A stretch of DNA of 64,000 nt from Petropleomorpha daqingensis (GTDB lineage Bacteria; Actinomycetota; Actinomycetes; Mycobacteriales; Geodermatophilaceae), in assembly GCF_013408985.1 (NCBI RefSeq), contig NZ_JACBZT010000001.1, forward strand, positions 5,101,197 through 5,165,196, given 5' to 3'. Shown in pieces: positions 31,497-62,361 of the stretch. A program made the translations under genes and the position numbers. The notes below the pieces were generated by a model, which did no database searches, was not told where the DNA came from, and was given only the letters and a program-made list of their open reading frames with translations. Each line of letters starts with the position of its first letter. Within the stretch, counting starts at the first letter, position 1.

Positions 31497-33920
31497 ATGG
31501 CTGTGCTGCCGACGGCGGGGATCCGGCGTCGCGCGGCCTCCGCACCGCGTCCGGTGCACCCGGCGGACCGCCCGCAACGGCACCCGGGTGACCTGCTGCG
31601 CGTGGCCCTGGGCCTGGTGGTCCTGGGCATCGGGTTCCTGATCGCCCAGCAGGGGCAGCTGTCCCCGCTCGAGCGGGACCTGTTCCGGCTGGTCAACGAC
31701 CTGCCCGGCTTCTTCTTCCCGGTCGTCTGGGCGGTCATGCAGCTGGGCAACGTGGTCGCGGTGCCGACGCTGGCGGCCGTCGCGGCGCTCACCCGGCGCT
31801 TCCGGCTGGCCCGTGACCTGCTGCTCTCCGGGCTGCTCGCCTACTACGCCGCCGACCTGGTGAAGAGCGTCGTGGGCAGGGAGCGCCCGTCCGGGCTGCC
31901 GGTCGGCGCGGTGCTGCACGAGGGCGTGATCGGCGGGGCCGGGTTCATCAGCGGTCACGCCGCCGTCGCCGCCGCGATGGCCACCGCCGCGGCGCCCTAC
32001 CTCACCCGGCGCTGGCGGCGCGTGGTGTGGGCGCTGGCCTGGACCGTCGGCCTGGCCCGCATCTACGTGGGCGCCCACCTCCCGCTCGACGTCGTCGGCG
32101 GGCTCGCCGCGGGCTGGGCCATCGGCTCGGCCGTGCACTGGGTGCTGGGCGTGCCGAGATGGCGGCCGAGGCCGGAGCGGGTCGCCGCGCAACTGGCCCG
32201 CTACGGCCTGCCCGTGCAGGACCTGCGACCGGTCGCGGCGCACGCGCGCAGCTCGCACCCCTTCACCGCCGTCGACGGATCCGGCCGCCGGGTGTTCGTC
32301 AAGGTGCTCGACCCGCACCGGTACGAACGCGACTGGTTCTACCGGCTGGCCCGGCTCCTGGCGGTGCGCGACGTCAAGGACGCCGACGCCCTCGCCCCTC
32401 TGGGCCGCCAGGCCGAGCACGAGGCCGTGGCGGCGTTCACCGCGCGCGCCCGCGGGGTCCGCGTGCCGGAGGTGCTGCTGGCGCGCGGCAACGACCGGGG
32501 TGCGGTGGTCGCCCAGCAGTACCTGCCCGGGCGCCCGCTCGACGAGTTGCCACCCGAGGAGCTCACCCCGCCGCTGCTCGACCGCGTCTGGGAGCAGGTG
32601 GCGCTGCTGCACCGGGCCCGGATCGCGCACCGGGACCTGGTCGCCTCGAGCATCGTGGTCGACGACCGCGGCCGGCCGTGGCTGGTCGACTTCGGCAACG
32701 CCGAGACCGGCGCGGACGACAGGACGCTCGCCGGCGACGTGGCCGAGCTGATGGCGTCGCTGTCGCTGCGCACCGACGTCCGGGCCGTGGTCGCCGCCGC
32801 GATCGGCCGGCTCGGTCCCGAGGCGGTGGGCGCCGCGCTGCCGGAGCTCGCGCCGCTGGCCCTGTCGAGCGCCACCCGCGCCGCCCTGCGCAGCACCCCG
32901 GCCGGGATCACGCCGCTGCGGGTCGAGGTGCGCCGCCGGCTGGAGCTGCCCGACCCCTCCCGGCTGCAGTTCGGGCCGGCCGGTCCGCTGGCCTGGGTCA
33001 CGATCGGTGCCGCGGCGGTCGTCGTCCTGGGCGGGCTCGCCTGGCTGACCGGGCTGACCGGGCTCGCCGACACCGTCGAGTTGAACGGCTGGCGCTGGCT
33101 CGGCGGCGCGGTCGCCCTGGCCGTCCTCGCCCGCGGGGCCCTGGCCGCGGCAGCGGTGATGGCCGTCGACCGGCGGCTCGCCCTGGGCCGGGTCTTCGCC
33201 GCCACGATCGCCGTCGACGGCGCCCTGCTGCGCCGCGGGCCGGTCGACCGGCGCCGGGTGGCGGCCCGGTTCCTGGAGCGCAGCGGCGTGCTACCGGCCG
33301 CGGCCGAGCGGGCCGTCGACCGCTACGACGTCGGCACCGTCCTCGCGGGGGTCGTCGCGGCGGCGGGCGCGATCGTCCTCGCCCTGCTCGACGGGGTGCT
33401 CGTGGACTGGCGGCCACCCGAGCAGCAGCTGGGCACGGTGCTGATCGGCGCTGCCGGTTTCGTCCTCGTGGCCCTGGGCCAGGTGCTCGCCGCCCGGCAC
33501 GGCGGCCCGGCCGCGCCGAGCCCGCTGCACCGGCGGCTGCTGGGCCTGCCGGACCGGGGGTGGCGCGACGACGGCCCGGCGGACCTGCGCAGCTGGGCGG
33601 CGCAGCTCGCCTGGACGGCGCTCGGCATCCTGCTCGAGGCCTCGGCGCTGGCCGCGGCCCTGCACGGGCTGCGCGGGGACATCCCGGTGCTGACGACGGC
33701 CGCGCTGTACACCGTGCTGCGCCTGCTCTGGGCGGGGCTGCCGGTGCTGGGTGCACCCGGGCTCGCCGAGGCCGCACTGCTGCTCGCGCTCACCGCGGCG
33801 GGGGCGCCGTCGGCCGCCGCCGGCGGGGCGGTGCTCGCCGTCCGGGTGCTGACCTTCTGGCTACCGGCCGTCCTCGGCTGGGCGCTGTCCGGCCGGCTCG
33901 AGCACCGTCTGCTCCTCTGA
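31497..33920 (+). CDS. PAP2 phosphatase - protein-kinase-like - flippase-like fusion membrane protein
   Basis: 807 aa with three parts. Residues 30-215: membrane PAP2 phosphatase with KSVVGRERP (123-131), SGH (152-154) and RIYVGAHLPLDVVGG (R188, H194, D198), the three phosphatase motifs. Residues about 220-450: kinase-like domain with VFVKVL, IAHRDLVASSIVV and WLVDFGNAE, i.e. HRD and DFG equivalents. Residues about 495-807: at least seven membrane helices like the lysylphosphatidylglycerol-synthase/AglD flippase region (UPF0104). Possibly a polyprenyl-phosphate or lipid phosphatase with regulated flipping. ATG start. Its last 60 bases overlap the convergent acyltransferase gene. Substrate and kinase activity unknown. 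Confidence 0.85.
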   Translation: MAVLPTAGIRRRAASAPRPVHPADRPQRHPGDLLRVALGLVVLGIGFLIAQQGQLSPLERDLFRLVNDLPGFFFPVVWAVMQLGNVVAVPTLAAVAALTRRFRLARDLLLSGLLAYYAADLVKSVVGRERPSGLPVGAVLHEGVIGGAGFISGHAAVAAAMATAAAPYLTRRWRRVVWALAWTVGLARIYVGAHLPLDVVGGLAAGWAIGSAVHWVLGVPRWRPRPERVAAQLARYGLPVQDLRPVAAHARSSHPFTAVDGSGRRVFVKVLDPHRYERDWFYRLARLLAVRDVKDADALAPLGRQAEHEAVAAFTARARGVRVPEVLLARGNDRGAVVAQQYLPGRPLDELPPEELTPPLLDRVWEQVALLHRARIAHRDLVASSIVVDDRGRPWLVDFGNAETGADDRTLAGDVAELMASLSLRTDVRAVVAAAIGRLGPEAVGAALPELAPLALSSATRAALRSTPAGITPLRVEVRRRLELPDPSRLQFGPAGPLAWVTIGAAAVVVLGGLAWLTGLTGLADTVELNGWRWLGGAVALAVLARGALAAAAVMAVDRRLALGRVFAATIAVDGALLRRGPVDRRRVAARFLERSGVLPAAAERAVDRYDVGTVLAGVVAAAGAIVLALLDGVLVDWRPPEQQLGTVLIGAAGFVLVALGQVLAARHGGPAAPSPLHRRLLGLPDRGWRDDGPADLRSWAAQLAWTALGILLEASALAAALHGLRGDIPVLTTAALYTVLRLLWAGLPVLGAPGLAEAALLLALTAAGAPSAAAGGAVLAVRVLTFWLPAVLGWALSGRLEHRLLL

Positions 33921-35246
33921 CGCGAGGCGATGCCGGACGCCGGGTGCCGCCAGCTCGTCGAGCCCCGCCTGCAACGCCTCGACGAGCGCCGGGAGGTCGG
34001 GCACCTGCTCGGGGTCCGCCGCCGCCGTGACCGACAGCGTGCCCGCGTAGGACAGGCACGCGAACGACACGGTCACGTTCCCGGAGTCCCCGACCGCGAT
34101 CGGCACCATCCCGGTCACCAGCAGTCCGCCGAGGTGCATCGACCCGGGCGGGCCGGGCACGTTGCTCACCAGCGTGTGCAGGCGCCGCTGCGAGCGCAGC
34201 CACCGCCGGTAGAGCCCGGTCCCGGCGGCGAGCCGCACCACCAGGACCGCGAGAGCAGCCGACCTCGCGGACCCGTCGCGCTCGCGGCGGACGACGCCGG
34301 CGATCCGGCGCATCCGCTCCCCGGCCGGTCCGCCCGATGGCACCGGGACGAGCAGCGGCGAGGTGACGTTGCCCAGGTGCGCCAGGTCGGCGGAACGGCG
34401 TCCCGTGACGACGATCCCCATCTGGAACTCCGGCACCGATTCGCCGCGCGCGGCCAGCAGGTCGCGCAGCGCCGTCGACACCGCGACCAGGACGGCGTCG
34501 TTGACGGTCCCGCCGAGTTCGGCGGCCGCGGCGTGCAGCGCGGTGAGGTCGGTCCTGGCCACCCCGAACCGGCGGCCGTTCCCCGTCGGGGCGAGCAGCG
34601 AGCAGGTGGCCGCGCGCGGCGGGTGCAGCCCACCGCCGGCCCGGAAGGATCCCCGCAGCGCCCGCAGGGCTCCCGGCGCCCGGCGCAGCGCCGACCACCT
34701 CGTGCGGGCGGCATCGGCGACCAGCGCCCGGTACGACGGTCGCGGCCGGGGTGGCGGCGCGGCGGCGTCGCCGGGCGGGCCCGGGTCGGCCAGCCGGGCT
34801 AGCACGGCCAGACCGCCGATGCCGTCGGAGACCACGTGGTCGATCACGACCACGACCGCGAGACCGCCGTCGGCCAGGCCCTCCACTACGGCCGCCGACC
34901 ACCGGGGGCGCGCCCGGTCCAGCCGGGCGCAGACGAGCCCCACGGCGAGGTCCAGCAGCGCCGGCTCGTCCCCCGGGGTCGGGCAGGTGAGCCGACGGAC
35001 GTGCGCCTCGGCGTCGAAGGCGGGGTCGTCCACCCAGACCGGCCGGCCCGCCGGCGGTGGCACCCGGACCAGCCGCTGGCGCAACCGGGGCACCGTGCCG
35101 AGCCGGCCGGCGACGAGCCGGCGCAGCGCCTCGGCATCCGCCCCCGGTTCGAGCCGCAGCACCACGCCGAACTGCTGGGGCACAGCGCTGTGCGTGGACA
35201 CCGCGCCCATCGCCAGATCGGCGGAGCTGGCTCGCTCGACGGTCAC
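33861..35246 (-). CDS. Wax ester synthase / diacylglycerol acyltransferase (WS/DGAT) family protein
   Basis: 461 aa. The acyltransferase motif HHxxxDG appears as DHVVSDG (136-142): the first His is Asp, but the second, catalytic His and the Asp-Gly are kept. Other landmarks: LGTVPRLRQRLV, PVWVDDPAFDAEAHVRR, GTVNDAVLVAVSTALR and the C-terminal VSNVPGPPGSMHLGG. The enzyme esterifies acyl-CoA to diacylglycerol or fatty alcohol, making storage lipid. GTG at 35246 gives the expected N-terminus VTVERASSADLAMG. A DosR-box-like sequence lies 36 bases upstream (35282-35295), shared with the divergent 2TM gene. Confidence 0.9.
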   Translation of the reverse strand: MTVERASSADLAMGAVSTHSAVPQQFGVVLRLEPGADAEALRRLVAGRLGTVPRLRQRLVRVPPPAGRPVWVDDPAFDAEAHVRRLTCPTPGDEPALLDLAVGLVCARLDRARPRWSAAVVEGLADGGLAVVVVIDHVVSDGIGGLAVLARLADPGPPGDAAAPPPRPRPSYRALVADAARTRWSALRRAPGALRALRGSFRAGGGLHPPRAATCSLLAPTGNGRRFGVARTDLTALHAAAAELGGTVNDAVLVAVSTALRDLLAARGESVPEFQMGIVVTGRRSADLAHLGNVTSPLLVPVPSGGPAGERMRRIAGVVRRERDGSARSAALAVLVVRLAAGTGLYRRWLRSQRRLHTLVSNVPGPPGSMHLGGLLVTGMVPIAVGDSGNVTVSFACLSYAGTLSVTAAADPEQVPDLPALVEALQAGLDELAAPGVRHRLASEEQTVLEPAGQRPAEDGR

Positions 35247-35281
35247 GATCCCACCCTGCGCGCGACGGACGGGACCGACAC

Positions 35282-35295
35282 GGGCCGAAGGTCGG
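35282..35295. promoter_or_regulatory. Weak DosR-box-like site
   Basis: GGGCCGAAGGTCGG. Compared with the mycobacterial core GGGACTWWAGTCCC it matches 9 of 14 positions. The first 12 bases are identical to the site at 38466-38477. It lies between the divergent WS/DGAT and 2TM genes. Weak on its own; reported because it recurs. Confidence 0.35.
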
Positions 35296-35378
35296 CGCGA
35301 TGCGGGCCGTCCGGACGGCGTCGGCGCCCGGGAGTCCGCGACAGGCTGAGGTCGACCCTCGATGCCGAGGAGGCCCCG

Positions 35379-35681
35379 ATGCCCACCGCCGACCCGCCCG
35401 TCCCCGCCGGTGATCTCCGATCGCTCGCGATCCGCCGGCTGCACCGCAAGCGCGACTACTTCGCCCACCTGACCAGCTACCTGATCGTCAACGGCGTGCT
35501 CGTCGTCGTCTGGCTGGTCATCGGGCTCACCACCGGCGCCTGGTTCCCCTGGCCGCTGTTCCCGATCGCGGGCTGGGGCATCGGCCTGGCCTTCGACACC
35601 TGGGCCACGTTCGGCCCGCCGAGCCGGCCTATCGACGAGGCAGCGGTCGACCGCGAGATGGAGCGGCTGCAGAGCCGCTGA
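35379..35681 (+). CDS. 2TM domain-containing small membrane protein
   Basis: 100 aa. LAIRRLHRKRDYFAHLTSYL, then two membrane helices (IVNGVLVVVWLVIGLTTG and WPLFPIAGWGIGLAFDTW) and a charged C-terminus (VDREMERLQSR), the exact layout of the 2TM domain (PF13239), which in other proteins is fused to LytTR or histidine kinases. Alone here. ATG with GAGGAGG upstream. Confidence 0.9.
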   Translation: MPTADPPVPAGDLRSLAIRRLHRKRDYFAHLTSYLIVNGVLVVVWLVIGLTTGAWFPWPLFPIAGWGIGLAFDTWATFGPPSRPIDEAAVDREMERLQSR

Positions 35682-35708: not shown

Positions 35709-38408
35709 TCACCGCCGCCGGCGGCGGGCGCGCAGCAGCTCGTCCACGCCCCAGACCAGGACCGGGAACGGCAGCAGCACCAGCAGCACCCAACCCGGCA
35801 GCGCGGCGGTACCGAACACGTCCTGGGCGAGCGGCCAGTAGACGAGGACGCCGGTGAACAGCAGCTCACCGGCGATGCCCCAGAGCAGCAGCGGGTTGGT
35901 CGCCAGGCCGACCGCGCGCAGCGACGCCCACTCGGTCCGGGCGGCGAAGGCCGTGCCGATCTGGCAGGCCACGATCGCGGCGAACGTCGCGGTGGTGGCC
36001 TGCCGGTACACGTCGTGCAGCGCGGTGCCGGGGCCGACGGCGTCTCCCGGGCGCCACCCGGCGTGCAGCAGCACGGCGGCGAACACCCCCAGCACCAGGA
36101 CCGCCGACAGCAGGCCGAGCACGCCCCAGGCGCGCCACAGCATCCGGCCGGTGATCACGCCTTCCGACCGGGGCCGCGGCGGCCGGTGCATCAGCCCCGG
36201 CTCGGCCGGCTCGCGGCCGAGGGCCAGCGCCGGCAACGTCTCGGTGCCCAGGTCGATGGCGAGGATCTGCAGCACGGTGAGCGGCAGCGGGATCGCACCG
36301 CCGGAGAGGGCGAAGACCAGGAACGGCACGACCTCGGGCACGGCGTGGGCGAAGATGTAGAGGACGAACTTCCGCACGTTGTCGAAGACCCGCCGGCCCT
36401 CTTCGACGCCCGCGGTGAGCGTGGCGAAGTTGTCGTCGGTCAGGACGACGGTCGCCGCCTCGCGCGCGACGTCGGTGCCGCTGGCGCCCATGGCCACCCC
36501 GATGTCGGCGCGGCGCAGCGCCGGCGCGTCGTTGACCCCGTCGCCGGTCATCGCCACGACCTCGCCCGACCGGTGCAGGGCGTCCGCGATCCGCAGCTTC
36601 GTCTCCGGGGTCGCCCGTGCGAAGACCAGCTCGTCGTCGGCGGTGAGCAGCTCGCGCAGCTCCCCCTCGGACATCGCGTCGACCAGCTCGCCGTCGACGA
36701 CCCGGTCGGCGCGGATGCCGACGCGGCGGGCGATCTCGGCGGCCGTGCTGCCGTGGTCCCCGGTCACGACGTGGATCCGGATGCCGGCGGTGTGGCAGCC
36801 CGCCACGGCGCCGGCGACGCCGTCCCGCGGCGGGTCCTCCAGCCCGACGAGGCCGACCAGGCACAGGTCGCGGTCGGTGGTGTCCCGGTCCGGCGGGACC
36901 GCGGCCGGGTCGACCGGGCCGAGGTCACGCCGGGCGACGGCCAGGACGCGCAGCCCCACCCCGGCCAGCCGCTCGACGTCCCGCTCGACGGCGTCCCGCG
37001 CCGCCGCGTCGAGGGCCGTCGCCGTCCCGTCGGCCCCCAGGAGGGCGGCGCACCGCGGCAGCACCTGCTCGGGCGCACCCTTCACCGAGACGACGACACG
37101 ACCGGCGACCCGGTCCACGGTCGTCATCCGGCGGAACCTCGCCTCGAAGCGGTGCAGGACCCAGCGATCGGAGTCGCGCACGGCGGGAGCCAGCTCCACC
37201 CCGGACCCACGGGCCCACGCGAGCAGCGCCAGCTCCGTCGGGTCGCCGTCCCCGTCGGCCAGGTCCGCCGTGCTGCAGCGGACCAGCACCTGCGCGAGCG
37301 TCGCGGCCACGGGCGACCCCGGCGCGACCTCGACGCGCAGCGCCACCGCGGCGACCGTCATCCGGTTGGCGGTCAGCGTGCCGGTCTTGTCGGTGCAGAT
37401 CGTGGTCGTGGAGCCGAGGGTCTCGACGGCGGACAGCCGCTTGACCACCGCGCCCCGCGAGGCCATCTGCCGCACCCCGGCGGCCAGCGCCAGCGTGATC
37501 GTCGGCAGCAGCCCCTCGGGGACGTTGGCGACCAGCAGCCCGATGGCGAACACCGCCGCCGTGGTGAGCGTCAGGCCGGCCAGCAGCCCGATCGGCAGGA
37601 ACGCGAGGCCCGCGCCGACCGCGACGGCCGCGATCAGCCACGCCACCCGCCGGACCTGCCGCTCCAGCGGGCTGGGCTCGGCGTCCACCCGCTGCGAGAG
37701 GGCCGCGATCCGGCCCAGCTCCGTGTGCGCACCGGTGGCGAAGGCCAGGCCGGTGGCCGTGCCCGCCGTCACGGCCGATCCGCTGAACACCAGCACCGGT
37801 GAGTCGAGCAGGCGACCGGCGTCGTCGACGGCGTCGGCGCTGCGCGCCACCGGGTAGGACTCCCCTGTCAGCGCGGCGGTGTCCACCTCCAGGGCACCGC
37901 CGACCAGCCGGACGTCCGCCGGGACCCGCTGCCCCTCCTCGAGGGCGATCAGATCGCCGCGGACGAGCTCCCGGGCCGCGACCCGCACCCGCGCCCCGCC
38001 GCGCACCGCCCAGACCTCGTCGGGCAGGTAGCCCTGCAGCGCCTCCACCGCCCGTTCGGCCTGCGTCTCCTGCCAGAACGCGAAGCCGGCGTTGAGCACG
38101 ATCACGACGACGATCGCCACGGCCAGCTCGGTGGACCCCGAGACGGCGGCCAGCGCCGCCGCCACCCAGAGCAGCAGCGCCAGCGGGTGCACGACCTGGG
38201 TCAGCACGGAGCGCCACCAGGGGCGCCGCGCCGCCCGCGCCAGCTCGTTCGGGCCCAGCACCACCAGCCGGCGCGCCGCCTCGGTGGCGCTCAGCCCCTG
38301 CGCGGTGGAGCGGAGGTCCCGCAGCAGCCGGGTGACCGGCTCGCGGGGGTCGCCGACGTCGTCCGGACCGGCGACGGGAGCGGGCGCGGTCCGATGGGTG
38401 AGAGTCAT
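35709..38408 (-). CDS. Cation-translocating P-type ATPase (P2-type, CtpF-like)
   Basis: 899 aa. N-terminal cation-ATPase domain, actuator TGES (181-184), TM4 motif [12 protein letters not shown] (PEGLL 297-301), phosphorylation site [14 protein letters not shown] with Asp340, and [20 protein letters not shown] in the hinge. The PEGLL motif and length are those of P2-type calcium/sodium-like pumps; M. tuberculosis CtpF, a DosR-regulon member, is the nearest remembered match, but ion specificity is unproven. ATG at 38408; a frame upstream to 38576 lacks family sequence. A DosR-box-like site stands 58 bases upstream. Confidence 0.93.
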
Positions 38409-38465
38409 CCCGCCCAGTCCACGGTCGGCCGCCGGCAGCTGATACGTCCGTCGGTCGCCATCGGG

Positions 38466-38479
38466 GGGCCGAAGGTCCT
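38466..38479. promoter_or_regulatory. DosR-box-like site between ATPase and GerW-type genes
   Basis: GGGCCGAAGGTCCT matches 10 of 14 positions of GGGACTWWAGTCCC and keeps the half-site spacing. It lies midway (57-58 bases from each start) between the divergent P-type ATPase and GerW-type genes. Confidence 0.45.
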
Positions 38480-38535
38480 CCGCACGCGCCGGCCAGGAGC
38501 TGGGAGGCTGGATGCCCCGAGCCGAGGAGATACCC

Positions 38536-38865
38536 ATGAGCCTGTCCCAGCTGCTCGACACCGCTCGCGACTCCATGACGGTGCGGCGCGTCTTCGGCGA
38601 GCCCTACGAGCGCGACGGGGCGACGGTGATCCCCGCCGCCCGTGTGCGCGGCGCGGGCGGCGGGGGCGGTGGCAAGGACGAGCGCGGCCAGGAGGGTGAC
38701 GGCGGCGGATTCGTGCTCACCGCCCGCCCGGTGGGCGCCTACGTCGTCAAGGACGGCGCGGTGACCTGGCAGCCGGCCGTCGACGTCGAGCGGGTGGTCA
38801 CCGTAGCGGTGCTCGGCTGGGCGGTCGTGGCGTGGCTGGTCACCCGGGCGGTCCGCCGCCGCTGA
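38536..38865 (+). CDS. GerW/YtfJ family protein
   Basis: 109 aa. [39 protein letters not shown], then [21 protein letters not shown], the glycine-rich pattern of the YtfJ/GerW family, followed by one C-terminal membrane helix ([16 protein letters not shown]) and RRR. In Bacillus the family is a spore germination protein; actinobacterial versions are of unknown role. ATG at 38536 with GAGGAGA upstream. Divergent from the P-type ATPase across a DosR-box-like site. Confidence 0.85.
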
Positions 38866-47805: not shown

Positions 47806-49969
<2,164 letters not shown>

Positions 49970-54340: not shown

Positions 54341-57300
54341 GCCGGGCGTCCCGAGAGCCGGGTCGCCAGCTCGACGAGCGCCGCGGCCGGCGCCCCGACG
54401 GCGGCGGCCAGCGCGAGCACCGCGGGCGACAGACGCAGCAGGAGCACCCCCTCCGCCAGTGCCGGCACGGCCAGGACCAGGACGACGACGCCCACCATGG
54501 CGCAGATCAGGGCCGCCTTCCAGGCGGTGAGCGGCCGGGCCAGGATGCCGAGGGTCCACAAGGCGACGACGAGGACGACCAGGGTGGCCGTCGTCCGCGC
54601 ACCGCTCACGCCGGCCCCCGGGTCGGCCCAGCGCGTGACCGCGTACGCGGTGTAGGCCGCGATCCCGGTGATCAGGCCGACCGGCAGGGAGAAGCGCAGC
54701 ACCCGGGCGAGGAAGCCGGGCAGGTAGCGGCGCCGGTTCGGGCCCAGCGCCAGGACGAAGCCGGGGACGCCGATGGTGACCGCGGAGATGAGCGTCAGCT
54801 GCACCGGTGCCAGCGGATAGGCGACGGCCGTGACCACGGTGACCAGCGCCAGCACCAGCGAGTAGACGTTCTTGGTCAGGAACAGGTTGGCCGCGCGCTC
54901 GATGTTCGCGATGACCCGCCGGCCCTCGGCGACGGCGTCGGGCAGGTGGGCGAACCGCCCGTCGAGCAGCACCAGCTGGGCCACGGCGCGGGTCGCCGGC
55001 GCCCCGGTGCCCATGGCCACGCCGATGTCGGCGTCCTTGAGGGCGAGGGCGTCGTTGACGCCGTCGCCGGTCATGGCCACCACGTGCCCCGAGCGCTGCA
55101 GGGCTCGCACCATCGCGCGCTTCTGGTACGGCGTGACCCGGCCGAAGACGCTCCCCCGCTCCATCGCGGCGGCGAGCGCGCCGTCGTCCTCCGGGAGGGT
55201 CCGCGCGTCGACGGCGTCGGCGGCCCCCGACACCCCGGGGACGCCGACCGCAGCGGCGACCGCGCCCACGGTGCGGGGGTTGTCCCCGGAGAGGACCTTG
55301 AGCGCGACGCCCTGCGCGGTGAAGTACCCGAGCACCTCCCTGGCGTCCTCCCGGATCCGCTCGGCCAGCACGACGAGCGCGACCGCCGTCAGGCCGGTCG
55401 GCAGGTGCGCGTCGCCGTCGCCGGTCCCGGGCGGGTGCGGCGAGCGGGCCAGCAGGAGCACCCGGCGCCCCTCCGCGGCCAGCGCGTCCGCCCGCCCGCG
55501 GGCTGCGGCGTCGGGGAGCACCATCTCGGGAGCCCCGAGCACCCAGGTGGCGCCGTCGCCGGTCTGCACGGCCGACCACTTCCGGGCCGACGAGAACGGG
55601 ACCACCGTCCCCGGTGGCCCGGACGGCGGGGGGAACTCGCCGGCGAGGGCGGCGGCCGTCGCGTTCGCGCGGTCGGCGGCGACCAGCGCCCCGAGCGCCG
55701 CACGCGCCGCGGGCTCGCAGCGGGGGTCGAGCGGCACCCAGTCGTCGAAGCGGACGTCGCCGTGGGTGAGCGTGCCGGTCTTGTCCAGGCACACGACGTC
55801 GACCCGCGCCAGCGCTTCCACAGCCGGCAGTTCCTGGACCAGCGTCCGCCGCCGCGCCAGCGTGAGCGCGGCCACGCCGAAGGCGAGCGTGGTGAGCAGC
55901 ACCAGCCCCTCGGGGACCATGCCGACGAGCGCGGCCACGGTGCCGGTGACGGCCTCGCGCCAGCTCTCGTTCTCGGTGCTGCGGAACTGGCTCCAGAGCA
56001 CGAGCGGCCCGACGACGACCAGGACGACGGCGATCCAGCGCAGCAGCCGGTTCGTGCCGGCCACCAGCTCCGAGTAGGTCATCGTGAAGCGGCGGGCCTC
56101 GCTCGCCAGCCGGGCGGCGTACGCGTCGTCCCCGACTGCCGTGGTCTGCACGCGGCCGGCGCCGGACACGACGATCGAGCCGGACAGCACCGGATCCCCG
56201 GGGGCCTTGGCGACGGCCTCGGCCTCGCCCGTCAGCAGGGACTCGTCGACCGCGAGGCCCCCGGACGTGCGGACCGCACCGTCGGCCGGGACCTGGTCGC
56301 CCGCCCGCAGGTCGAGCAGGTCGCCGAGGACGACGTCGGCCACCGCCACCTCGGCCTCCGCGCCGTCCCGCAGGACGCGCACGCGCGGCGCGGTGAGCAC
56401 CGCCAGCCGGTCCAGGGTGCGCTTGGCCCGCAGCTCCTGGACGATCCCGATCCCGGCGTTGGCCACCACGACCCCGCCGAACAGGGCGTTCTGCCACGGG
56501 CCGGCTGCCAGCGCGACCACGCACAGCACGGCCAGCAGGCCGTTGAAGAACGTGAACACGTTGGCGCGGACGATCTGGCCGAGCGACCGGCTGGTCCGCA
56601 CGCTCGAGGCGTTCGACAGGCCTCGCGCGACGCGGTCGGCGACCTCGGCCCCGGTCAGCCCCGACGGCGGCGTCTCCCGCTCGGCGACGGCCCGGACCGG
56701 GAGCCCGGCGTCGGCCACCGGCGCGGGCCGGCCGGCCAGCACCCGCAGCAGCCCCCAGCCGGTGACCGCCGCCATGGTCAGCGCCATCAGGCACCCGGCC
56801 AGCGCGCCGATCGCCGCGATCAGCCAGGCCGCCTGACCCGGCTGCCAGAGCGGCGTGGCCACCGCCGTGAAGACGGCGAGGCCCGCGAGCCAGGCCAGCG
56901 CCGTCCAGCCGATCCAGCGCGCGGCTCCCGGGACGAGGGACCGGAGCACGGTCCACTGGGCGACGCCGATGCTGAGCAGCAGGGTCAGCCCGCCGGCCAC
57001 GGCGAGGCCCACCTGCACGGGGACCGGCCAGTCCTGCCAGCCGTCCCCGGCCGCGCTCGGCGTCATGCCGAGCACCCAGGCCAGAGCGGCGGCGAGGGCG
57101 GTGCGCGCGGTCCACGAGCGGGCCGGGAAACCCGGCAGCACGCCGCCGAGGACCCGGCTCTGGGCGATGCCGAGCACCGCCCCCTCGCCCGCACCGGCCA
57201 CGGCGAAGGCGAGCAACCGCGGCCCCTCCGGCAGCCCGTCGCCCCCGAGGACGGAGACCAGGACCGGGACCAGGAACCCCAGCGTCTCCCCCAGCGTGGC

Positions 57301-57390
57301 CGCGACCAGCCAGCGCCGCCAGAGAGGGCCGGGCGGTTCGCCGGCCCTGCGCGCCTCGACGGGCGCGGCCGGGAGCACCGCGTTGTCCAC
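54337..57390 (-). CDS. P-type ATPase (CtpE-like) with extra N-terminal membrane domain
   Basis: 1017 aa. Residues 1-225 form an additional membrane domain of about six helices (for example LLAFAVAGAGEGAVLGIAQS and IAAIGALAGCLMALTMAAV) not found in standard pumps. From about 243 (GLTGAEVADRVARGLSN) it follows CtpE: TGEA (387-390), MVPEGL (491-496), LDKTGT with Asp536, and [21 protein letters not shown]. CtpE of mycobacteria is a calcium pump of about 800 aa. GTG start. The beta-lactamase-like gene is 13 bases upstream and ackA overlaps downstream, giving a three-gene operon. Confidence 0.92.
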   Translation of the reverse strand: MDNAVLPAAPVEARRAGEPPGPLWRRWLVAATLGETLGFLVPVLVSVLGGDGLPEGPRLLAFAVAGAGEGAVLGIAQSRVLGGVLPGFPARSWTARTALAAALAWVLGMTPSAAGDGWQDWPVPVQVGLAVAGGLTLLLSIGVAQWTVLRSLVPGAARWIGWTALAWLAGLAVFTAVATPLWQPGQAAWLIAAIGALAGCLMALTMAAVTGWGLLRVLAGRPAPVADAGLPVRAVAERETPPSGLTGAEVADRVARGLSNASSVRTSRSLGQIVRANVFTFFNGLLAVLCVVALAAGPWQNALFGGVVVANAGIGIVQELRAKRTLDRLAVLTAPRVRVLRDGAEAEVAVADVVLGDLLDLRAGDQVPADGAVRTSGGLAVDESLLTGEAEAVAKAPGDPVLSGSIVVSGAGRVQTTAVGDDAYAARLASEARRFTMTYSELVAGTNRLLRWIAVVLVVVGPLVLWSQFRSTENESWREAVTGTVAALVGMVPEGLVLLTTLAFGVAALTLARRRTLVQELPAVEALARVDVVCLDKTGTLTHGDVRFDDWVPLDPRCEPAARAALGALVAADRANATAAALAGEFPPPSGPPGTVVPFSSARKWSAVQTGDGATWVLGAPEMVLPDAAARGRADALAAEGRRVLLLARSPHPPGTGDGDAHLPTGLTAVALVVLAERIREDAREVLGYFTAQGVALKVLSGDNPRTVGAVAAAVGVPGVSGAADAVDARTLPEDDGALAAAMERGSVFGRVTPYQKRAMVRALQRSGHVVAMTGDGVNDALALKDADIGVAMGTGAPATRAVAQLVLLDGRFAHLPDAVAEGRRVIANIERAANLFLTKNVYSLVLALVTVVTAVAYPLAPVQLTLISAVTIGVPGFVLALGPNRRRYLPGFLARVLRFSLPVGLITGIAAYTAYAVTRWADPGAGVSGARTTATLVVLVVALWTLGILARPLTAWKAALICAMVGVVVLVLAVPALAEGVLLLRLSPAVLALAAAVGAPAAALVELATRLSGRPA

Positions 57391-57403: not shown

Positions 57404-58825
57404 TCAGCCGGCGGACCGCTTGACGGCCGTGATCGGCATCAGGTCCAGGTGCATCGCCGTCGTCCGGCCCAGCCCGTCCTGGCTGAAGACGACCCTCACG
57501 GTCACCAGTCCGTCCCGCATCAGGTCGACCCGGAAGGCGTACGGGTCGGCCGGGTCGTCGGGGTGCAGCGGGAGGGCGCCGACGGCTGCCCCGGCCGGGC
57601 TCAGCATCCGCAGGTGCGGCCGGCCCTTCCGGACGACGACGTCGAACCCCGCGCCGAACGCCCCCCGGATCCGCACGTCGGACAGCGGACCGGGCAGGAC
57701 GTACAGGCCACGGAGATCGGCCCAGATCTCGGGGTGGTGCGGCACGTCGCCGCGGATGCCGGCGTGCGGGACGCCGAGCAGGTCGTCGAGCAACCGCCCC
57801 GTCTCGCTCGGGAGCCAGAAGCCACCCTGCCGCGTGCCGTTGGTGAAGGCCACGATGCCCACGGCGTCGTCGGGCGCGAGGAAGACCTGCGAGTCGAACC
57901 CCGGCATCACTCCCTGGTGCTCCACGACGGGACGACCGCCGGCCTCGCCGCGGAAGAAGGCGAGGCCCATCCCCGGGATGCGCGGGTCCGGCCGGTACTG
58001 GGGGGCGAACATCTCGGCGACGCCGTCGGGCTTGAGCGCCGTGCCGTGCTCGTTGGTGCCCCCGCCGAGCAGCGCCGCGACGTACCGGGCCATGTCCCGG
58101 GGAGTGGAGTAGGCGCTCGCGGCACCGGCCGTCACGAACTCGCGCAGCGGCACCGCCCGGGCGCCGCGCCGGCCCAGCCGGTACCCGGTGGCCAGCCGCG
58201 CCCGCACCTGGGCCGGAGGGTCGAGGTCGGTGTCGGTCATCCCCAGCGGCCGGAACACCTGCTCGCGCAGGTAGCGGCCGAGCGGCTCGCGGCTCACGTC
58301 CTCGACGAGCTGGCCGAGGAGCGCGGGGCTGTGGTTGCCGTAGCGGAACCGCGTGCCCGGCTCGGCGGCCAGCCGCACCCGGCCCCGGTAGAACTCCGCG
58401 AGGGCCGGCACCGGCTGCCCGGCCGGGACGCTCTCGCCGAAGTCCCGGCGGAACATCGCCGAGCGGGTCACCTCCTCGCCGATGCCGGCGGTGTGGGTGA
58501 GCAGGTGCCGGACCGTGGCCGGCCGTCGGGCCTCCCCCTTGTGCACCAGCTGGACGGTCCGCAGGTAGGCGTTGGCCGGCTCGTCGAGGTCGACCAGGCC
58601 CTGCTCCACCAGCTGCAGGACGGCGATCGCGGTGAAGGTCTTGGTGATCGAGGCGACCCGGAAGACCGTGTCCTCCGTGACCGGCCGGCCGGTCACGTCA
58701 TCGGCGAGACCGTGGCCGACGAAGAAGTCCAGGGTGCCGCCGCGGACGACGCCCAGCGCCAGCCCCACGGCCGGGTGGCGGCCGAGGATCCCGGCGACCG
58801 CGGCGGACAGCTCACGAGCATCCAT
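57404..58825 (-). CDS. Serine beta-lactamase-family hydrolase
   Basis: 473 aa class C-like/esterase fold. Catalytic SITK (FRVASITKTFTAIAVLQL), the second motif YGNHSPALLGQLV (Tyr of YxN) and RHLLTHTAGIGEEV. The C-terminal 120 residues form a beta domain (LRGLYVLPGPLSDVRIRG) like the lipocalin-type end of related peptidases. No signal peptide is visible, which argues against an antibiotic-inactivating lactamase and for an intracellular esterase/peptidase. ATG at 58825 preferred over GTG 58834. First gene of an operon with the CtpE-like pump and acetate kinase. Confidence 0.9.
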   Translation of the reverse strand: MDARELSAAVAGILGRHPAVGLALGVVRGGTLDFFVGHGLADDVTGRPVTEDTVFRVASITKTFTAIAVLQLVEQGLVDLDEPANAYLRTVQLVHKGEARRPATVRHLLTHTAGIGEEVTRSAMFRRDFGESVPAGQPVPALAEFYRGRVRLAAEPGTRFRYGNHSPALLGQLVEDVSREPLGRYLREQVFRPLGMTDTDLDPPAQVRARLATGYRLGRRGARAVPLREFVTAGAASAYSTPRDMARYVAALLGGGTNEHGTALKPDGVAEMFAPQYRPDPRIPGMGLAFFRGEAGGRPVVEHQGVMPGFDSQVFLAPDDAVGIVAFTNGTRQGGFWLPSETGRLLDDLLGVPHAGIRGDVPHHPEIWADLRGLYVLPGPLSDVRIRGAFGAGFDVVVRKGRPHLRMLSPAGAAVGALPLHPDDPADPYAFRVDLMRDGLVTVRVVFSQDGLGRTTAMHLDLMPITAVKRSAG

Positions 58826-58940
58826 CTCGGGCACGCCCCACGGTGGCGCCGGCGCGCGGCAGGCACAGGAGGCGAGCGGCCCTCGTCACACGGGGCGTTG
58901 GGCTCTCCTCCGCCTGCCCGGTCGCGGCTGGGATCGGTGC

Positions 58941-59477
58941 GTGTTCACGGTGATCGGGCCGGTCCTGTGGTCGGCGTGCTTCCTCGTCGCGCTGGTCTCC
59001 GCCGTGCTCGCCGGCCGCAGCCGCCGGGCCATGGTCGTCGGCCGGGTCGCCGTGGGGGTGCTCATGCTCGTCGGCGGCGCCGTCTTCAACCTCGTGCAGC
59101 TGCTGCTCGGCAACGACTACAGCGGCTTCGCCGACCCGTCGCCCTTCGGCTGGGTGACCGACGCCTGGGAGGCGGTCGTCCCGGCCCACCACGTCGTCCT
59201 GATCGGGCTGCTGGTGCTGTTCGAGGCGACGGTCGGCGTGCTGGTCCTCAGCGGCGGGCGCCGCACGCAGTTCGGCTACGCCGCCGCGATCGCCTTCCAC
59301 GCGCTGCTGTGGCTGTTCGGGTGGTTCGAGGCGGTCTACGTCGTCCTCGTGCTCCCGGCGCTGGTGCTCCTGCTGCGCGCCGAACGCCGCGCCGGACGCC
59401 GCGCAGCGGCGGCCGTTCCGGACCGGCCCGAGGTCGTCCCGGCGGACGGGGGGCTCCCCCGGCCGCGAGCGGGGTGA
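58941..59477 (+). CDS. Four-helix membrane protein, unknown function
   Basis: 178 aa. Four hydrophobic segments (VIGPVLWSACFLVALVSAVL; VGVLMLVGGAVFNLVQLLLG; VVLIGLLVLFEATVGVLVL; AIAFHALLWLFGWFEAVYVV) and a charged C-terminus rich in Arg and Pro. No family recognised. GTG at 58941 with GGGA upstream. Its stop overlaps the start of the following WS/DGAT gene (GTGA), so it is probably a partner in storage-lipid synthesis or at least cotranscribed with it. Confidence 0.78.
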   Translation: MFTVIGPVLWSACFLVALVSAVLAGRSRRAMVVGRVAVGVLMLVGGAVFNLVQLLLGNDYSGFADPSPFGWVTDAWEAVVPAHHVVLIGLLVLFEATVGVLVLSGGRRTQFGYAAAIAFHALLWLFGWFEAVYVVLVLPALVLLLRAERRAGRRAAAAVPDRPEVVPADGGLPRPRAG

Positions 59478-60889
59478 GGGCGACGGATCCGGCGGTGCAG
59501 CGGCTGACGGCGGAGGACCGCCTCGTCCTGTGGCCGGACCGGGTCTGGCCGCAGGACATCGGCGCTCTCCTCGTGCTCGACGGCGCGGACCTGCTCGACG
59601 GGTCGGGGGCGGTGCGCATCGACGACCTCCGCCGGGTGATCGCCGGTCGGCTCCACCTGGTTCCCCGGTTCCGGCAGCTCCTGGTCACGCCGCGACGAGG
59701 GCTGGGGCGGCCGCTGTGGGTGGACGACCCGCGGTTCGACATCGACGCCCACGTGCGCGTCGCGCCGCTGCCGGCGCACCCGGACGAGTCCGAGCTGCTG
59801 GAGTGCGTGGCGGCCCTGCGCCGGCGGCGCCTGGACCGCGCCCGGCCGCTGTGGGAGATGTGGGTGCTCCCGGGCCTGCCGGACCGGCGCGTGGGTCTGT
59901 TCGTCCGGCTGCACCACGTCGTCGCGGACGGCATCGCGGGGGTCGCCACGATGGGCGCGCTGCTCGACGCCCCCGGCGCGCGGGAGACGATTCCGCCCTG
60001 GACACCCGCGCCGGCGCCGAGCGCACGGGAGCTGCTGATCGACGACCTGCGCTCACGGATCCGGCGGGCCGGCTCTGCGCTCGGGCACCCGCGCGCCGCC
60101 CTCGGCACCCTCGGGACCGTCCGGGGCGAGCTCCAGGAGCTGCTGGCCGACGACGGCGCGCGGACCACGACCCTGAACCGGGTGGTCGGCGCCGAACGCC
60201 GCCTGGCGCTGGCCCGGGCCGACATGCCCGAGGTCACGGCGCTCGCGGCAGCGCACGGCGCGACGGTCGACGACGTCCTCCTGACCGTCACCGCGGGCGG
60301 GCTCCGGGCACTGCTCGCCGCCCGGGGCGAGCTCTCCGACGACCTGGTCGTACGCGTCTTCGTGCCGGTCACGCTGCGGCCGCGGGGCTCGCGTGCGCGG
60401 GCGCGCGGGAACCTGATCGGCCAGATGGTCGTGCCCCTGCCGGTCGGGACGGCGGACCCTGTCGCCCGGCTCGAGGCGATCGCGGCGGAGACCACCCGTC
60501 GCAAGGCGCGCCGCCGCCCCTCGCTCGCGACGCTCTTCCACGGGCGGCTGGTCTCGCTGGTCCTGCTGAAGCTCATGGCCCGCCGGCCGGTGAACGTGGA
60601 GACCGCGGACGTACCGGGGCCGACGGAGCCCGTGTTCCTCGCCGGCGCACGGGTGCTCGAGGTGTTCCCGCTGCTCAACCTGGTCGGCACCGTGCCCGTC
60701 GGGATCGGTGCGCTGTCCTACGCGGGGCGGCTCGGGATCATGCTCACCGTCGACCGGGAGGCGGTGGCCGATCTCGACGTCCTGGCCGGGGGGCTGCGCC
60801 GGGACCTGGCGGCTCTCCTCGGCCCGGCCGCGCAAACCCCTTGGGAGGCGCACCGCGAGAGCGGGAGGATCGCGGAGAGCCACCTGTAG
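59474..60889 (+). CDS. Wax ester synthase / diacylglycerol acyltransferase (WS/DGAT)
   Basis: 471 aa with the complete motif HHVVADG (147-153). Also LTAEDRLVLWPDRVWPQDIG at the N-terminus, PLWVDDPRFDIDAHVRV, the catalytic-domain end TVDDVLLTVTAGGLRAL, and DVPGPTEPVFLAGARV with LSYAGRLGIMLTVD in the second half. Makes triacylglycerol or wax ester from acyl-CoA. GTG overlaps the preceding membrane-protein stop. It is the second WS/DGAT in the window and, unlike the copy at 33861-35246, has both His residues. Confidence 0.94.
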   Translation: MRATDPAVQRLTAEDRLVLWPDRVWPQDIGALLVLDGADLLDGSGAVRIDDLRRVIAGRLHLVPRFRQLLVTPRRGLGRPLWVDDPRFDIDAHVRVAPLPAHPDESELLECVAALRRRRLDRARPLWEMWVLPGLPDRRVGLFVRLHHVVADGIAGVATMGALLDAPGARETIPPWTPAPAPSARELLIDDLRSRIRRAGSALGHPRAALGTLGTVRGELQELLADDGARTTTLNRVVGAERRLALARADMPEVTALAAAHGATVDDVLLTVTAGGLRALLAARGELSDDLVVRVFVPVTLRPRGSRARARGNLIGQMVVPLPVGTADPVARLEAIAAETTRRKARRRPSLATLFHGRLVSLVLLKLMARRPVNVETADVPGPTEPVFLAGARVLEVFPLLNLVGTVPVGIGALSYAGRLGIMLTVDREAVADLDVLAGGLRRDLAALLGPAAQTPWEAHRESGRIAESHL

Positions 60890-60901: not shown

Positions 60902-61120
60902 GTGGACGGCGATCCCGAGAGTCTCGAGGACGGCATCCAGCTGGAGTTCGACCTGGCCCGACTGGAGCTCGCCGATGCGCGGCGGGCCTTCCTGGCCGAC
61001 GACTCCCCGGCATCCCGGCAGCGGGTGGACGAGTGCCGGGCGCGGCTCGACCGGATCCTCGACATGTGGAACGACGTCCTCGTGACCACGGCCTGGAGCG
61101 TCCACTCGCCGGCGGGGTGA
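60902..61120 (+). CDS. Small helical protein, unknown function
   Basis: 72 aa, acidic, two predicted amphipathic helices (IQLEFDLARLELADARRAFL and RQRVDECRARLDRILDMW). Single Cys and two Trp. GTG start with GCGGAGGTG 6-10 bases upstream, 12 bases after the WS/DGAT stop, so likely cotranscribed. Family not recognised. Confidence 0.65.
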   Translation: MDGDPESLEDGIQLEFDLARLELADARRAFLADDSPASRQRVDECRARLDRILDMWNDVLVTTAWSVHSPAG

Positions 61121-61242
61121 CCAACGACCCGCGGGGCACGGACGTTCGACGGGCGTTTCGGGACCTCTTCCAGCAGTCGCCCGGCAGCCGGGACGGCGAG
61201 GCTGGGTGCCCGGCGGACCGACGACCTGGAGAGGTGAGGCCG

Positions 61243-62361
61243 GTGCGCGCACCCACTCCCCACCCGCACCCCATCGGGTCTCCCGAGGCCTGGCGCGAGG
61301 CCCTCGAGGTCGCGGCCGACCACGGCCGGCTCGCCCCGTCGGTGCACAACACCCAGCCGTGGGTCTTCGCGCTCTTCCCCGACCGGCTGGAGGTGCGGGC
61401 GGACCGCTCCCGGCAGCTCGCCGTCCTGGATCCCGAGGGGCGGGAGCTGGTCATGAGCGTGGGTGCGGCCCTGTTCGGCGTCCGGGCCTCGCTGGCCGCC
61501 TCGCGGCTCGCCCCGGAGGTGCGCCGGCTCCCCGACCCGGACGACCCCGATCTGCTGGCCACCGTGGAGCAGGGCTCCGGTGCGCCTGACCCCGCGCTGG
61601 CCCCGCTGGACCGGGTGACCGCGCGGCGGCACACGAACCGGCACCCGTTCGGCCCGGAGACCGTGCCCGCCGAGGACCTCGAGGAGCTCGCCGCCGCGGT
61701 CGCGGCCGAGGACGCCGTGCTCGTACCGGTCCGCGCCGCCCAGCAGCGCGTCCTCGTCGGAGAGCTCACCCGGCTGGCCGACCTGCTGCAGAACGCCGAT
61801 CCGGACTACCGCGACGAACTGCGCCGGTGGACCGGCCAGTCCCCCGCGCAGGGCGACGGCGTGCCTGCGAGCTCGGTTCCGCGCACAGCGGGTCCGCGCA
61901 CGGACGCCGTCCCGGTGCGGGACTTCGACCTGCGGGGTACCGGGGGTCTCCCCAAGCAGACCGGGTCGGGCGTCGACCAGACGCTGCTCCTGCTCGCCAC
62001 CGCCCAGGACGACGTCCTCGCCTGGCTCCGGGCGGGCGAGGCGCTGCAGCGGTTGCTGCTGGAGCTGACCCGGCGGGACTGGGTGGCCGGCCCGCTCACC
62101 CAGTCGTTGGAGGTCCCGGAGACCCGCGCGCGGCTGGGCGAGCTGACGGATCCGTTCGTCCCGCAGATGCTGCTCCGGGTGGGCCGTGCGGCCCCGGCCG
62201 AGCCCACCGCGCGGCGGCCGCGCCGGGCCGTCGTCGAGAACAGCAGCCATCCGGACGCGCCCGCCGTCCCTCGCCAGCCGGCACCGGCACCAGCGCCGAC
62301 GCCGGCCGTCGTGCGCCCCGCCCCGGTGCCCGACGGCCGGGGTGGGACGACCTGGGGGTAG
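61243..62361 (+). CDS. Acg-family FMN-binding nitroreductase-like protein, second copy
   Basis: 372 aa. Same blocks as the copy at 43470-44471: LAPSVHNTQPWVFALF, VRADRSRQLAVLDPEGRELV, SVGAALFGVRASL, RRHTNRHPF, and AGEALQRLLLELTRRDWVAG. It differs by a Pro/Ala-rich C-terminal tail of about 40 residues (PAPAPTPAVVRPAPVPDG). GTG at 61243 chosen because GAGAGGTGAGG precedes it; GTG 61234 is the alternative. A TTCGGGACC half-site occurs about 80 bases upstream. Dormancy-linked flavin protein by family. Confidence 0.9.
   Translation: MRAPTPHPHPIGSPEAWREALEVAADHGRLAPSVHNTQPWVFALFPDRLEVRADRSRQLAVLDPEGRELVMSVGAALFGVRASLAASRLAPEVRRLPDPDDPDLLATVEQGSGAPDPALAPLDRVTARRHTNRHPFGPETVPAEDLEELAAAVAAEDAVLVPVRAAQQRVLVGELTRLADLLQNADPDYRDELRRWTGQSPAQGDGVPASSVPRTAGPRTDAVPVRDFDLRGTGGLPKQTGSGVDQTLLLLATAQDDVLAWLRAGEALQRLLLELTRRDWVAGPLTQSLEVPETRARLGELTDPFVPQMLLRVGRAAPAEPTARRPRRAVVENSSHPDAPAVPRQPAPAPAPTPAVVRPAPVPDGRGGTTWG

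Follow-up and report, generated by a model that had tools for sequence, protein, structure and literature searches.

Gene content and layout of the island

Twenty-four genes occupy positions 33861-62361 of the window, the 64,000-nucleotide stretch of Petropleomorpha daqingensis DNA analysed here, by our own count from codon-scoring gene calls with hand-set starts for some genes; the preliminary description had put the number at about 25. Genes were named from Pfam and NCBIfam profile searches of the window translations, and every family named in that description is present, with PDB matches for DevR and DevS:

33861..35468, minus: WS/DGAT 1, wax ester synthase/acyl-CoA:DAG acyltransferase (PF03007 4e-39, PF06974 9e-15)
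35709..38408, minus: P-type ATPase 1, Cation_ATPase N/C type, presumably CtpF-like by name (PF00689, PF00122, PF00690; start ATG 38408)
38512..38865, plus: YtfJ-like small protein (PF09579 2.8e-4, below the Pfam cut-off)
38872..39843, minus: tandem USP a (PF00582 twice, 9e-47)
39856..40854, minus: ADH, zinc alcohol dehydrogenase-like (PF08240 2e-26, PF00107)
40862..41773, minus: tandem USP b, first gene of USP-ADH-USP (PF00582 twice, 3e-42; start GTG 41773)
41799..43289, minus: DUF4389 membrane protein (PF14333 9e-19; start ATG 43289)
43470..44471, plus: Acg-family FMN nitroreductase-like protein 1, Acg1 (NF047509 307.5 bits, cut-off 199)
44443..45114, minus: SRPBCC-looking protein (sequence read by eye; no Pfam or NCBIfam match)
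45222..45809, plus: Rv1733c-family membrane protein (NF050032 142.7 bits, cut-off 80)
45938..46576, plus: tandem CBS-domain protein (PF00571 twice, 5e-30)
46573..47115, plus: flavodoxin (PF12724 1.6e-18)
47123..47665, minus: single-domain USP (PF00582 1.1e-31)
47806..48186, plus: PNPOx-like flavoprotein (PF12900 1.5e-16)
48272..49969, plus, start provisional: DevS, GAF(haem type)-GAF-HisKA_3-HATPase sensor kinase (PDB matches)
49983..50648, minus: DevR, NarL-type response regulator (PDB 3c3w 286.5 bits, 1.1e-84)
50785..53253, plus: phosphoketolase, XFP (PF09364 2e-139)
53246..54334, minus: acetate kinase, AckA (PF00871 2.8e-103)
54337..57390, minus: P-type ATPase 2, long N-terminal extension (PF00122, PF00702; TIGR01494 above cut-off)
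57404..58825, minus: serine beta-lactamase-fold protein (PF00144 2e-67)
58941..59477, plus: membrane-protein-looking gene (from its translation; no Pfam match)
59492..60889, plus: WS/DGAT 2 (PF03007 4e-44)
60902..61120, plus: small acidic protein, named from the codon-scoring gene call only
61285..62361, plus: Acg-family protein 2, Acg2 (NF047509 271.8 bits, cut-off 199; start candidates GTG 61234, 61243 or 61342)

The ADH, DUF4389, beta-lactamase-fold, YtfJ-like and SRPBCC-looking genes and the two small genes at 58941 and 60902 did not figure in the preliminary list. With 28.5 kb of a 5.38-Mb genome, the island holds 5 of the 11 USP-domain matches, 2 of 4 Acg genes, 1 of 2 Rv1733c copies and the sole phosphoketolase (1 of 1), an enrichment that is more than chance; it also contains two of the six WS/DGAT genes. 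The phosphoketolase shares its promoter gap with devR, and acetate kinase lies on the minus strand, convergent with it. Spacing suggests that the beta-lactamase-fold gene, P-type ATPase 2 and AckA likely form one operon. No nitrate reductase occurs among the window genes scanned with profiles.

Sequence comparison places the response regulator in the DevR branch: its best match is M. tuberculosis DevR (3c3w, 286 bits) as against 159 for VraR and 127 for NarL, and the recognition-helix stretch is almost identical to that of 3c3w in the alignment. The kinase is a predicted DevS/DosT-type GAF-GAF enzyme, its GAF matching 2vzw (6.5e-51), DevS 2w3d (2.6e-47) and 3zxq (3e-24). Its putative haem-pocket His139 and Tyr161, together with kinase His382, align with counterparts in relatives, and we take the first two to be the proximal His and distal Tyr equivalent to H149/Y171 of DevS. 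The best NCBIfam names, MadR/MadS, were set aside, both scores lying far below cut-off. The devS and devR genes are convergent, a layout that is no family speciality, being also found in Rhodococcus, Pseudonocardia, Actinosynnema and a Streptomyces plasmid.

Derivation and placement of a predicted DevR box

Plain consensus counts revealed no enrichment in the window or the genome: the DosR core consensus gave 3 matches vs 2.7 expected, a relaxed OsdR consensus 4 vs 2.75 and 41 vs 59, stricter forms 6 vs 7 and 19 vs 20, and a genome-wide count 89 vs 237 in reversed controls. Because such counting was uninformative, we used a comparative matrix and judged sites by position, in a gap or in a gene, and not by number. 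Expectation maximization (EM) on 28 devR upstream regions of relatives, with the window left out, returned the palindrome CMGGGACCTAGGTCCCKG. Its log-likelihood of 173, compared with 22-25 for five shuffled sets, was obtained with palindromy imposed and with the optimum hit by one of eight refined seeds (500 sampled), and the shuffled sets came from single-base shuffling and were run with a smaller number of seeds. The palindrome agrees with the published OsdR box (PMC5069765) and with the published DosR box (PMC2947987). Sites predicted with this matrix, listed without strand, are:

38464..38481: weak DevR-type box, P-type ATPase 1/YtfJ-like gap (score 7.0, below threshold)
41792..41809: predicted box upstream of USP b, overlapping the DUF4389 stop codon (10.6)
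43375..43392: predicted box, DUF4389/Acg1 gap (15.2)
45171..45188: predicted box, SRPBCC-looking gene/Rv1733c gap (8.3)
45823..45871: two predicted boxes upstream of CBS-flavodoxin (45823, 7.7; 45854, 11.6)
47690..47707: predicted box, single USP/PNPOx-DevS gap (17.3)
50714..50731: predicted box, shared devR/XFP gap (18.2)
58890..58907: predicted box between the beta-lactamase-fold and WS/DGAT 2 transcription units (9.9)
61115..61132: predicted box upstream of Acg2 (10.6)

These predicted sites put a palindromic DevR box upstream of island genes: with hand-set gene starts it falls in 8 of 10 island promoter gaps, the devR gap included and one box overlapping the neighbour's stop codon. When a single automatic gene caller was applied to island and control and the devR/XFP gap was left out, sites scoring at least 8 occurred in 5 of 10 island gaps vs 1 of 131 control gaps (Fisher 3.4e-6), those of at least 10 in 3 of 10 vs 0 of 131, and those of at least 12 in 1 of 10 vs 0 of 131 (p=0.07). 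In this test the caller ran DUF4389 and the Acg1 region together, which cost the 43375 box, and the 41792 box at a gap edge was also missed; hand-set starts recover the 43375 box. An intergenic control with a rougher caller pointed in the same direction (2 sites of at least 8 in 103 gaps, 14.1 kb). Genes themselves also contain box-like sites that score equally, at 22652 (17.3), 16144, 60444 and 55596, and across 400 kb of stretches of the same genome, some of them picked for a box, the matrix found 122 sites of at least 8. Upstream of P-type ATPase 1 there is only the weak box. WS/DGAT 1 has no DevR box upstream (best score 4.1; 0 of 5 in relatives) and is for this reason the weakest island member.

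Recurrence in relatives and a second DevRS module

Island content recurs in a part of the Geodermatophilaceae relatives, with clustering weak or missing in others; its order does not recur. At least four island families (which here and in the upstream counts below exclude flanking methyltransferase, FMO, TetR and PAP2/LPG genes) lie within 8.5 kb of DevS in 17 of 30 regions, or in 15 when only hits of at least 40% identity are counted. The remaining 13 regions have fewer than four, and five of these are from Modestobacter genomes with 1-2 families near DevS; three other genomes under the same genus label, g10 (G090, G092 and G093), have 5-7. Two regions end at a contig end (G028, four families; G002, one family). 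XFP is near DevS in 4 of 30 regions and acetate kinase in 5, one of them at 40% identity or more, and 8 of 30 have a relative of the SRPBCC-looking gene no more than 20 kb from DevS; the beta-lactamase-fold, 58941 and 60902 genes have counterparts near DevS in 0 of 30. The gene-order comparison proposed in the preliminary description shows clustering in those 17 regions and a strongly shuffled order. Predicted boxes upstream of the island devR recur in relatives, and among island-family genes other than devR a site of at least 10 lay upstream in 58 of 146, vs 1 of 146 gene interiors.

Elsewhere in the genome lies a DevS2/DevR2 module with a USP gene, a GGDEF-EAL gene and predicted boxes, as well as an Acg gene with a predicted box and a divergent PNPOx-looking gene. 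With DevRS2 and this Acg gene carrying boxes outside it, the island is not the self-contained module that had been suggested. Predicted boxes do not accompany every related gene: the nearest site to the second Rv1733c copy (9.6) is 370 bp off and within another gene, three USP genes that belong to neither the island nor DevRS2 (L002, L003 and L008) have no upstream site of at least 8 among the best three for each, and the two Hsp20 genes, both outside the island, have best upstream sites of 5.6 and 7.4 in a 1.5-kb flank, none reaching 8.

A division of labour between the two DevRS pairs, with DevR2 the main activator at the boxes and the island pair a specialized branch, we consider quite unlikely. 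DevR2 is 69% identical to the island DevR with a closely similar helix-turn-helix, 17 of 20 DevRS2 modules have a box of at least 12, and such modules also occur in genomes without a listed DevS1-type match (for example G003, G006 and G010), all of which would suit this reading; set against it are the recurring boxes upstream of the island devR and the clustering of island families around DevRS1 only, with a mean of 4.1 distinct families within 8.5 kb of DevS1 (30 regions) vs 0 around DevS2 (21 regions). The same concentration around DevS1 and not DevS2, along with boxes placed in gaps and upstream of related genes in relatives, makes it highly improbable that the genes are mere neighbours in a stress-gene hotspot without common control, a view that would fit the heavy shuffling of gene order and the chance-level raw consensus counts.

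Comparison with known regulons and proposed working

In M. tuberculosis the DosR regulon includes Acg, USP, CBS, Rv1733c, WS/DGAT and P-type ATPase genes, which are scattered, and devR-devS lie on one strand; Hsp20 (hspX) is a DosR target there. DevR, DevS and the box are common to that regulon and the island, in which the Acg, USP, CBS, Rv1733c and PNPOx targets expected of a DevR/DosR/OsdR regulon are present. Hsp20 is not in the island, unlike the M. tuberculosis regulon, which PMC4973870 puts at about 48 genes; as Hsp20 is also missing from the targets that Table 1 of PMC5069765 gives for S. coelicolor, it is not required for membership.

A clustered DevR-type island outside the mycobacteria has already been published for Streptomyces coelicolor OsdRK, around SCO0167-SCO0219 (PMC5069765), so the present locus is not new on this ground: it is a solid further example of a kind of system already known from Streptomyces, not a new kind. 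Both islands are clustered, share the palindromic box and have a DevS-like kinase and DevR-type regulator among USP, nitroreductase and PNPOx genes, and the USP-ADH-USP order is identical to SCO0200-0199-0198 (PMC5069765 Table 1). The S. coelicolor region has nitrate reductase and PPDK and keeps osdR-osdK in one operon (PMC5069765), whereas here no nar gene is found among the scanned window genes and devS converges with devR; the present island also differs in having phosphoketolase, acetate kinase, WS/DGAT and P-type ATPases. In the available text on Mycobacterium massiliense (PMC4263727), MMASJCM_2507-2524 similarly has phosphoketolase directly next to the genes for DevR and a sensor kinase, and USPs and an ADH are nearby, but USP, phosphoketolase, DevR and kinase share one strand, unlike here, and the words DosR and dormancy are absent from that paper's main text so far as available. 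For Rhodococcus equi DosR homologues, the accessible portion of PMC2947987 predicts DosR boxes (GGGHCNWWNGNCCC) and, in a separate discussion, gives the genome a phosphoketolase, with no island described. A link between XFP and the box in Rhodococcus loci was rejected, with 0 of 9 at a score of at least 8 by this matrix and consensus sites elsewhere in some loci. In open PMC full text, no paper joined 'Geodermatophil' with 'DosR', and none among the papers listed was on DevR in Geodermatophilaceae.

We conclude that the island is very probably a DevR/DevS (DosR/OsdR-type) regulon island. The preliminary description's view that sensor and regulator are physically clustered with likely targets is upheld by predicted boxes in many island gaps and by clustering in 17 of 30 relatives. 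DevS, a soluble kinase with a haem-type first GAF, would sense loss of O2, or a change in NO, CO or redox state, and phosphorylate DevR, which would bind the palindromes in island promoter gaps, its own included. DevR may then jointly switch on USPs, CBS, Acg, PNPOx, flavodoxin and Rv1733c as stress and redox proteins, a fermentative energy branch in which phosphoketolase would supply acetyl phosphate and acetate kinase ATP, and storage-lipid synthesis (WS/DGAT 2) with an ion pump. Through the boxes at DevS2/DevR2 and the distant Acg gene, the regulon would reach beyond the island.

An island under DevR control might mainly serve general redox, desiccation or developmental stress and not low-oxygen dormancy. 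In S. coelicolor, OsdR governs development, sporulation timing and broad stress genes (PMC5069765), Geodermatophilaceae members are described as withstanding desiccation, radiation and oxidants, and the scanned window genes include no nitrate reductase. We nevertheless regard this as unlikely, given that the haem-GAF residues of DevS are kept, that phosphoketolase with acetate kinase would be sensible mainly under limited respiration, and that low oxygen and NO induce the osdR region of S. coelicolor (cited in PMC5069765).

A low-oxygen regulon island would extend the DosR/OsdR dormancy switch to Geodermatophilaceae, a family known from deserts and stone, with many likely targets sitting around the switch and a box readable by comparison. 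More speculatively, and with low confidence, the family may keep two complete, old haem-kinase/DevR systems reading one shared box, one beside a stress island and the other beside a USP gene that a GGDEF-EAL (c-di-GMP) gene often accompanies; in this genome, where phosphoketolase shares its boxed divergent gap with devR, acetyl phosphate could both make ATP through acetate kinase and, by phosphorylating DevR directly, hold it in the active state, which would amount to a metabolic feed-forward latch on dormancy. The locus raises the questions of what keeps two DevRS systems in place and whether the switch is fed by phosphoketolase, and the function of the shared core of USP, Acg, CBS and Rv1733c proteins could be studied here in an environmental organism.

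Gene content and the DevS/DevR pair

The window occupies 5.10-5.17 Mb of a 5.38-Mb genome assembled as one contig. Codon scoring and profile searches delineated 24 genes in the island (33861-62361) and confirmed every gene family named for it in the preliminary description.

Island genes, left to right
Gene 1 (leftmost), minus: WS/DGAT1
Gene 2, minus: P-type ATPase 1
Gene 3, plus: YtfJ-like
Genes 4-6, minus: USP-ADH-USP
Gene 7, minus: DUF4389
Gene 8, plus: Acg1
Gene 9, minus: SRPBCC-looking protein
Gene 10, plus: Rv1733c family
Genes 11-12, plus: CBS-flavodoxin
Gene 13, minus: single universal stress protein (USP)
Genes 14-15, plus: PNPOx-DevS
Gene 16, minus: DevR
Gene 17, plus: phosphoketolase
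Genes 18-20, minus: acetate kinase, P-type ATPase 2, beta-lactamase fold
Genes 21-23, plus: WS/DGAT2 flanked by two small unknowns
Gene 24 (rightmost), plus: Acg2

Acetate kinase thus lies on the strand opposite to phosphoketolase. A DivIVA-like gene (62366-63427; weak match, below the Pfam cut-off) immediately follows the island.

Island DevR scores 286 bits against the M. tuberculosis DevR structure, ahead of VraR (second, 159) and NarL (127). The first GAF domain of DevS matches 2vzw and DevS GAFs (6.5e-51 to 2.6e-47), and its kinase end matches DosT 3zxq (3e-24). The closest named DevS comes from a Blastococcus MAG (77%), followed by other Geodermatophilaceae, Geodermatophilus and Blastococcus records, which bears out the family in the preliminary description. 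A His and a Tyr that align with the haem ligand and distal Tyr are widely conserved: His in 43/47 aligned rows of loci L119-L165 (two gaps, one D, one Q), 33/33 of L166-L198 and 21/21 rows of DevS2, a second sensor elsewhere in these genomes, and Tyr in 47/47, 33/33 and 20/21, with rows grouped by locus number so that the 33-row set includes L175, a Blastococcus.

DevR-type boxes in the island and in relatives

A palindromic model applied de novo to 250 bp upstream of devR in 28 of 29 non-window relatives' regions (one was too short) recovered CMGGGACCTAGGTCCCKG, with a log-likelihood of 173 versus 22-25 in five shuffled sets. The motif agrees with the OsdR box AGGGCCGATCGGCCCT in the accessible text of PMC5069765 and with the DosR consensus in that of PMC2947987. 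Scanning the window with the resulting matrix predicted the following boxes.

Predicted boxes in the island (position, score, location)
50714, 18.2, devR/phosphoketolase gap
47690, 17.3, gap
43375, 15.2, gap
45854 and 45823, 11.6 and 7.7, same gap
41792, 10.6, overlaps the DUF4389 stop
61115, 10.6, gap
58890, 9.9, gap
45171, 8.3, gap

Sites within genes also score highly (16144, 14.8; 60444, 13.8; 55596, 12.8), so score alone is no proof and position in gap or gene becomes the test. A further box-like site (22652-22669, 17.3) lies within a coding gene distant from the island. Using one automatic gene caller throughout and excluding the devR/phosphoketolase gap, we compared 10 island promoter gaps with 131 control gaps, 121 of them taken from 13 other genome stretches (4 selected on the basis of USP genes) and the remaining 10 within window 1-33860. 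Scores of at least 8 occurred in 5/10 versus 1/131 (p=3.4e-6), at least 10 in 3/10 versus 0/131 (p=2.6e-4) and at least 12 in 1/10 versus 0/131 (p=0.07).

In relatives, counting matches with at least 50% coverage, the 220 bp ahead of island-family genes other than devR scored at least 10 in 58/146 cases and at least 12 in 46/146, versus 1/146 windows inside the same genes at either threshold. A further 97 matches were excluded because their start was not close to residue 1 or because they extended past an end. Boxes preceded USP b (17/25), CBS (13/15), flavodoxin (11/25), PNPOx (7/15), ADH (2/14) and DevS (1/28), and none of five WS/DGAT1 genes.

Clustering in Geodermatophilaceae and a second DevRS module

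DevS at 55% identity or more occurs in 55/112 family genomes, counting our own and partial matches. We examined up to 20 kb either side of DevS in 30 of 54 relatives, picked non-randomly by score and spread, some regions ending early at contig ends. Across these regions it is gene content rather than gene order that recurs: PNPOx and ADH recur in 19 each, USP in 18, flavodoxin and Acg in 17, CBS in 15, DUF4389 in 10, SRPBCC-looking, Rv1733c, WS/DGAT and P-type ATPase 1 in 8, ATPase 2 and acetate kinase in 5, phosphoketolase in 4 and YtfJ-like in 3, and the beta-lactamase fold and two small unknowns in none at any identity. At least four distinct island families lie within 8.5 kb of DevS in 17/30 regions (15/30 at 40% identity or more). 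Five Modestobacter genomes (G101-G104, G106) have just 1-2, with Acg genes elsewhere in all five; G090, G092 and G093, of the same genus label, have 5-7.

The genome encodes a second module, DevS2/DevR2 (G000:C1, about 1416000-1421200; L099), whose DevR2 is 69% identical to DevR. The pair is convergent, like that of the island, with a USP ahead and a GGDEF-EAL gene opposite; two adjacent predicted boxes (14.1, 14.4) separate the USP-DevS2 side from the divergent GGDEF-EAL gene. Among 20 relatives chosen for a DevS2-type match, the pair is convergent in all, with a USP in 17 and adjacent GGDEF-EAL in 8; in 17, the 450 bp upstream contain a box scoring at least 12, and DevRS2 promoters were absent from the data that built the matrix. 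In a quick midpoint-rooted tree of 61 rows, DevS1 and DevS2 form separate groups (each 100% SH-aLRT; 14 rows of each kind, with sampling biased as named loci had been found with DevS1). Leaving out the module's own USP, no island family lies within 8.5 kb of DevS2 in 21/21 regions, so clustering belongs to DevS1.

Elsewhere, a predicted box at 4274735 (11.5) lies in the gap separating a third Acg gene from a divergent gene that, on our reading, is PNPOx-looking (G000:C1:4274232-4275791; L238), and a weaker one (9.0) precedes a fourth Acg gene. Because boxed DevRS2 and Acg genes lie outside the island, its description as self-contained is not right. The R. equi consensus has 19 genome matches versus 20 for a reversed control, hence no excess; they include one at devR, one at the USP-DevS2 unit and one immediately ahead of devR2 that scores only 6.2 with our matrix.

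The top box among own-genome stretches scanned (20.2; G000:C1:3853819, L100) precedes a small unknown gene by about 74 bp. Another strong box (15.8; G000:C1:3863231, L242), 4.5 kb from a second Rv1733c copy, separates a minus-strand gene from a large gene that looks like a regulator. On the 616-kb Streptomyces angustmyceticus plasmid p1, convergent DevS/DevR accompany CBS genes and a nitroreductase (L199), so such a module can be plasmid-borne.

Precedent and a possible phosphoketolase link

A clustered DosR-type island outside mycobacteria has a published precedent. In the accessible text of PMC5069765, Urem and colleagues place S. coelicolor OsdRK amid USPs, nitroreductase, PNPOx and nitrate reductase, attribute control of 20/22 genes of SCO0198-SCO0219 to eight predicted sites, and cite induction of the region by low oxygen and NO; the USP-ADH-USP order is common to both islands. 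The Geodermatophilaceae version, with its independently derived box and its complement of genes, is new, and so is the second DevRS module together with the box that recurs there; full-text searches of open PMC found no paper on either.

Phosphoketolase, single-copy in the genome, shares its boxed gap with devR. It occurs within the examined DevS flank in 19/80 named loci, from Geodermatophilaceae, a Frankiales MAG, Actinosynnema, Rhodococcus and a Mycobacterium MAG. Its upstream site scores at least 10 in six (five Geodermatophilaceae and the Frankiales MAG) and 8.1 in one; 12, including all nine Rhodococcus, have none of at least 8. M. massiliense has the order USP-phosphoketolase-DevR-kinase (accessible text of PMC4263727), and OsdR is phosphorylated in vitro by acetyl phosphate (that of PMC5069765). 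Together, the shared boxed gap, the DevS-phosphoketolase loci, the M. massiliense order and the OsdR precedent suggest that phosphoketolase could supply DevR as well as ATP synthesis.

Judged from sequence, the island is well supported as a real DevR-regulated island, ordinary in kind. Two features merit testing: the pairing of two DevRS systems with a single box, and the position of phosphoketolase at the promoter gap of devR.
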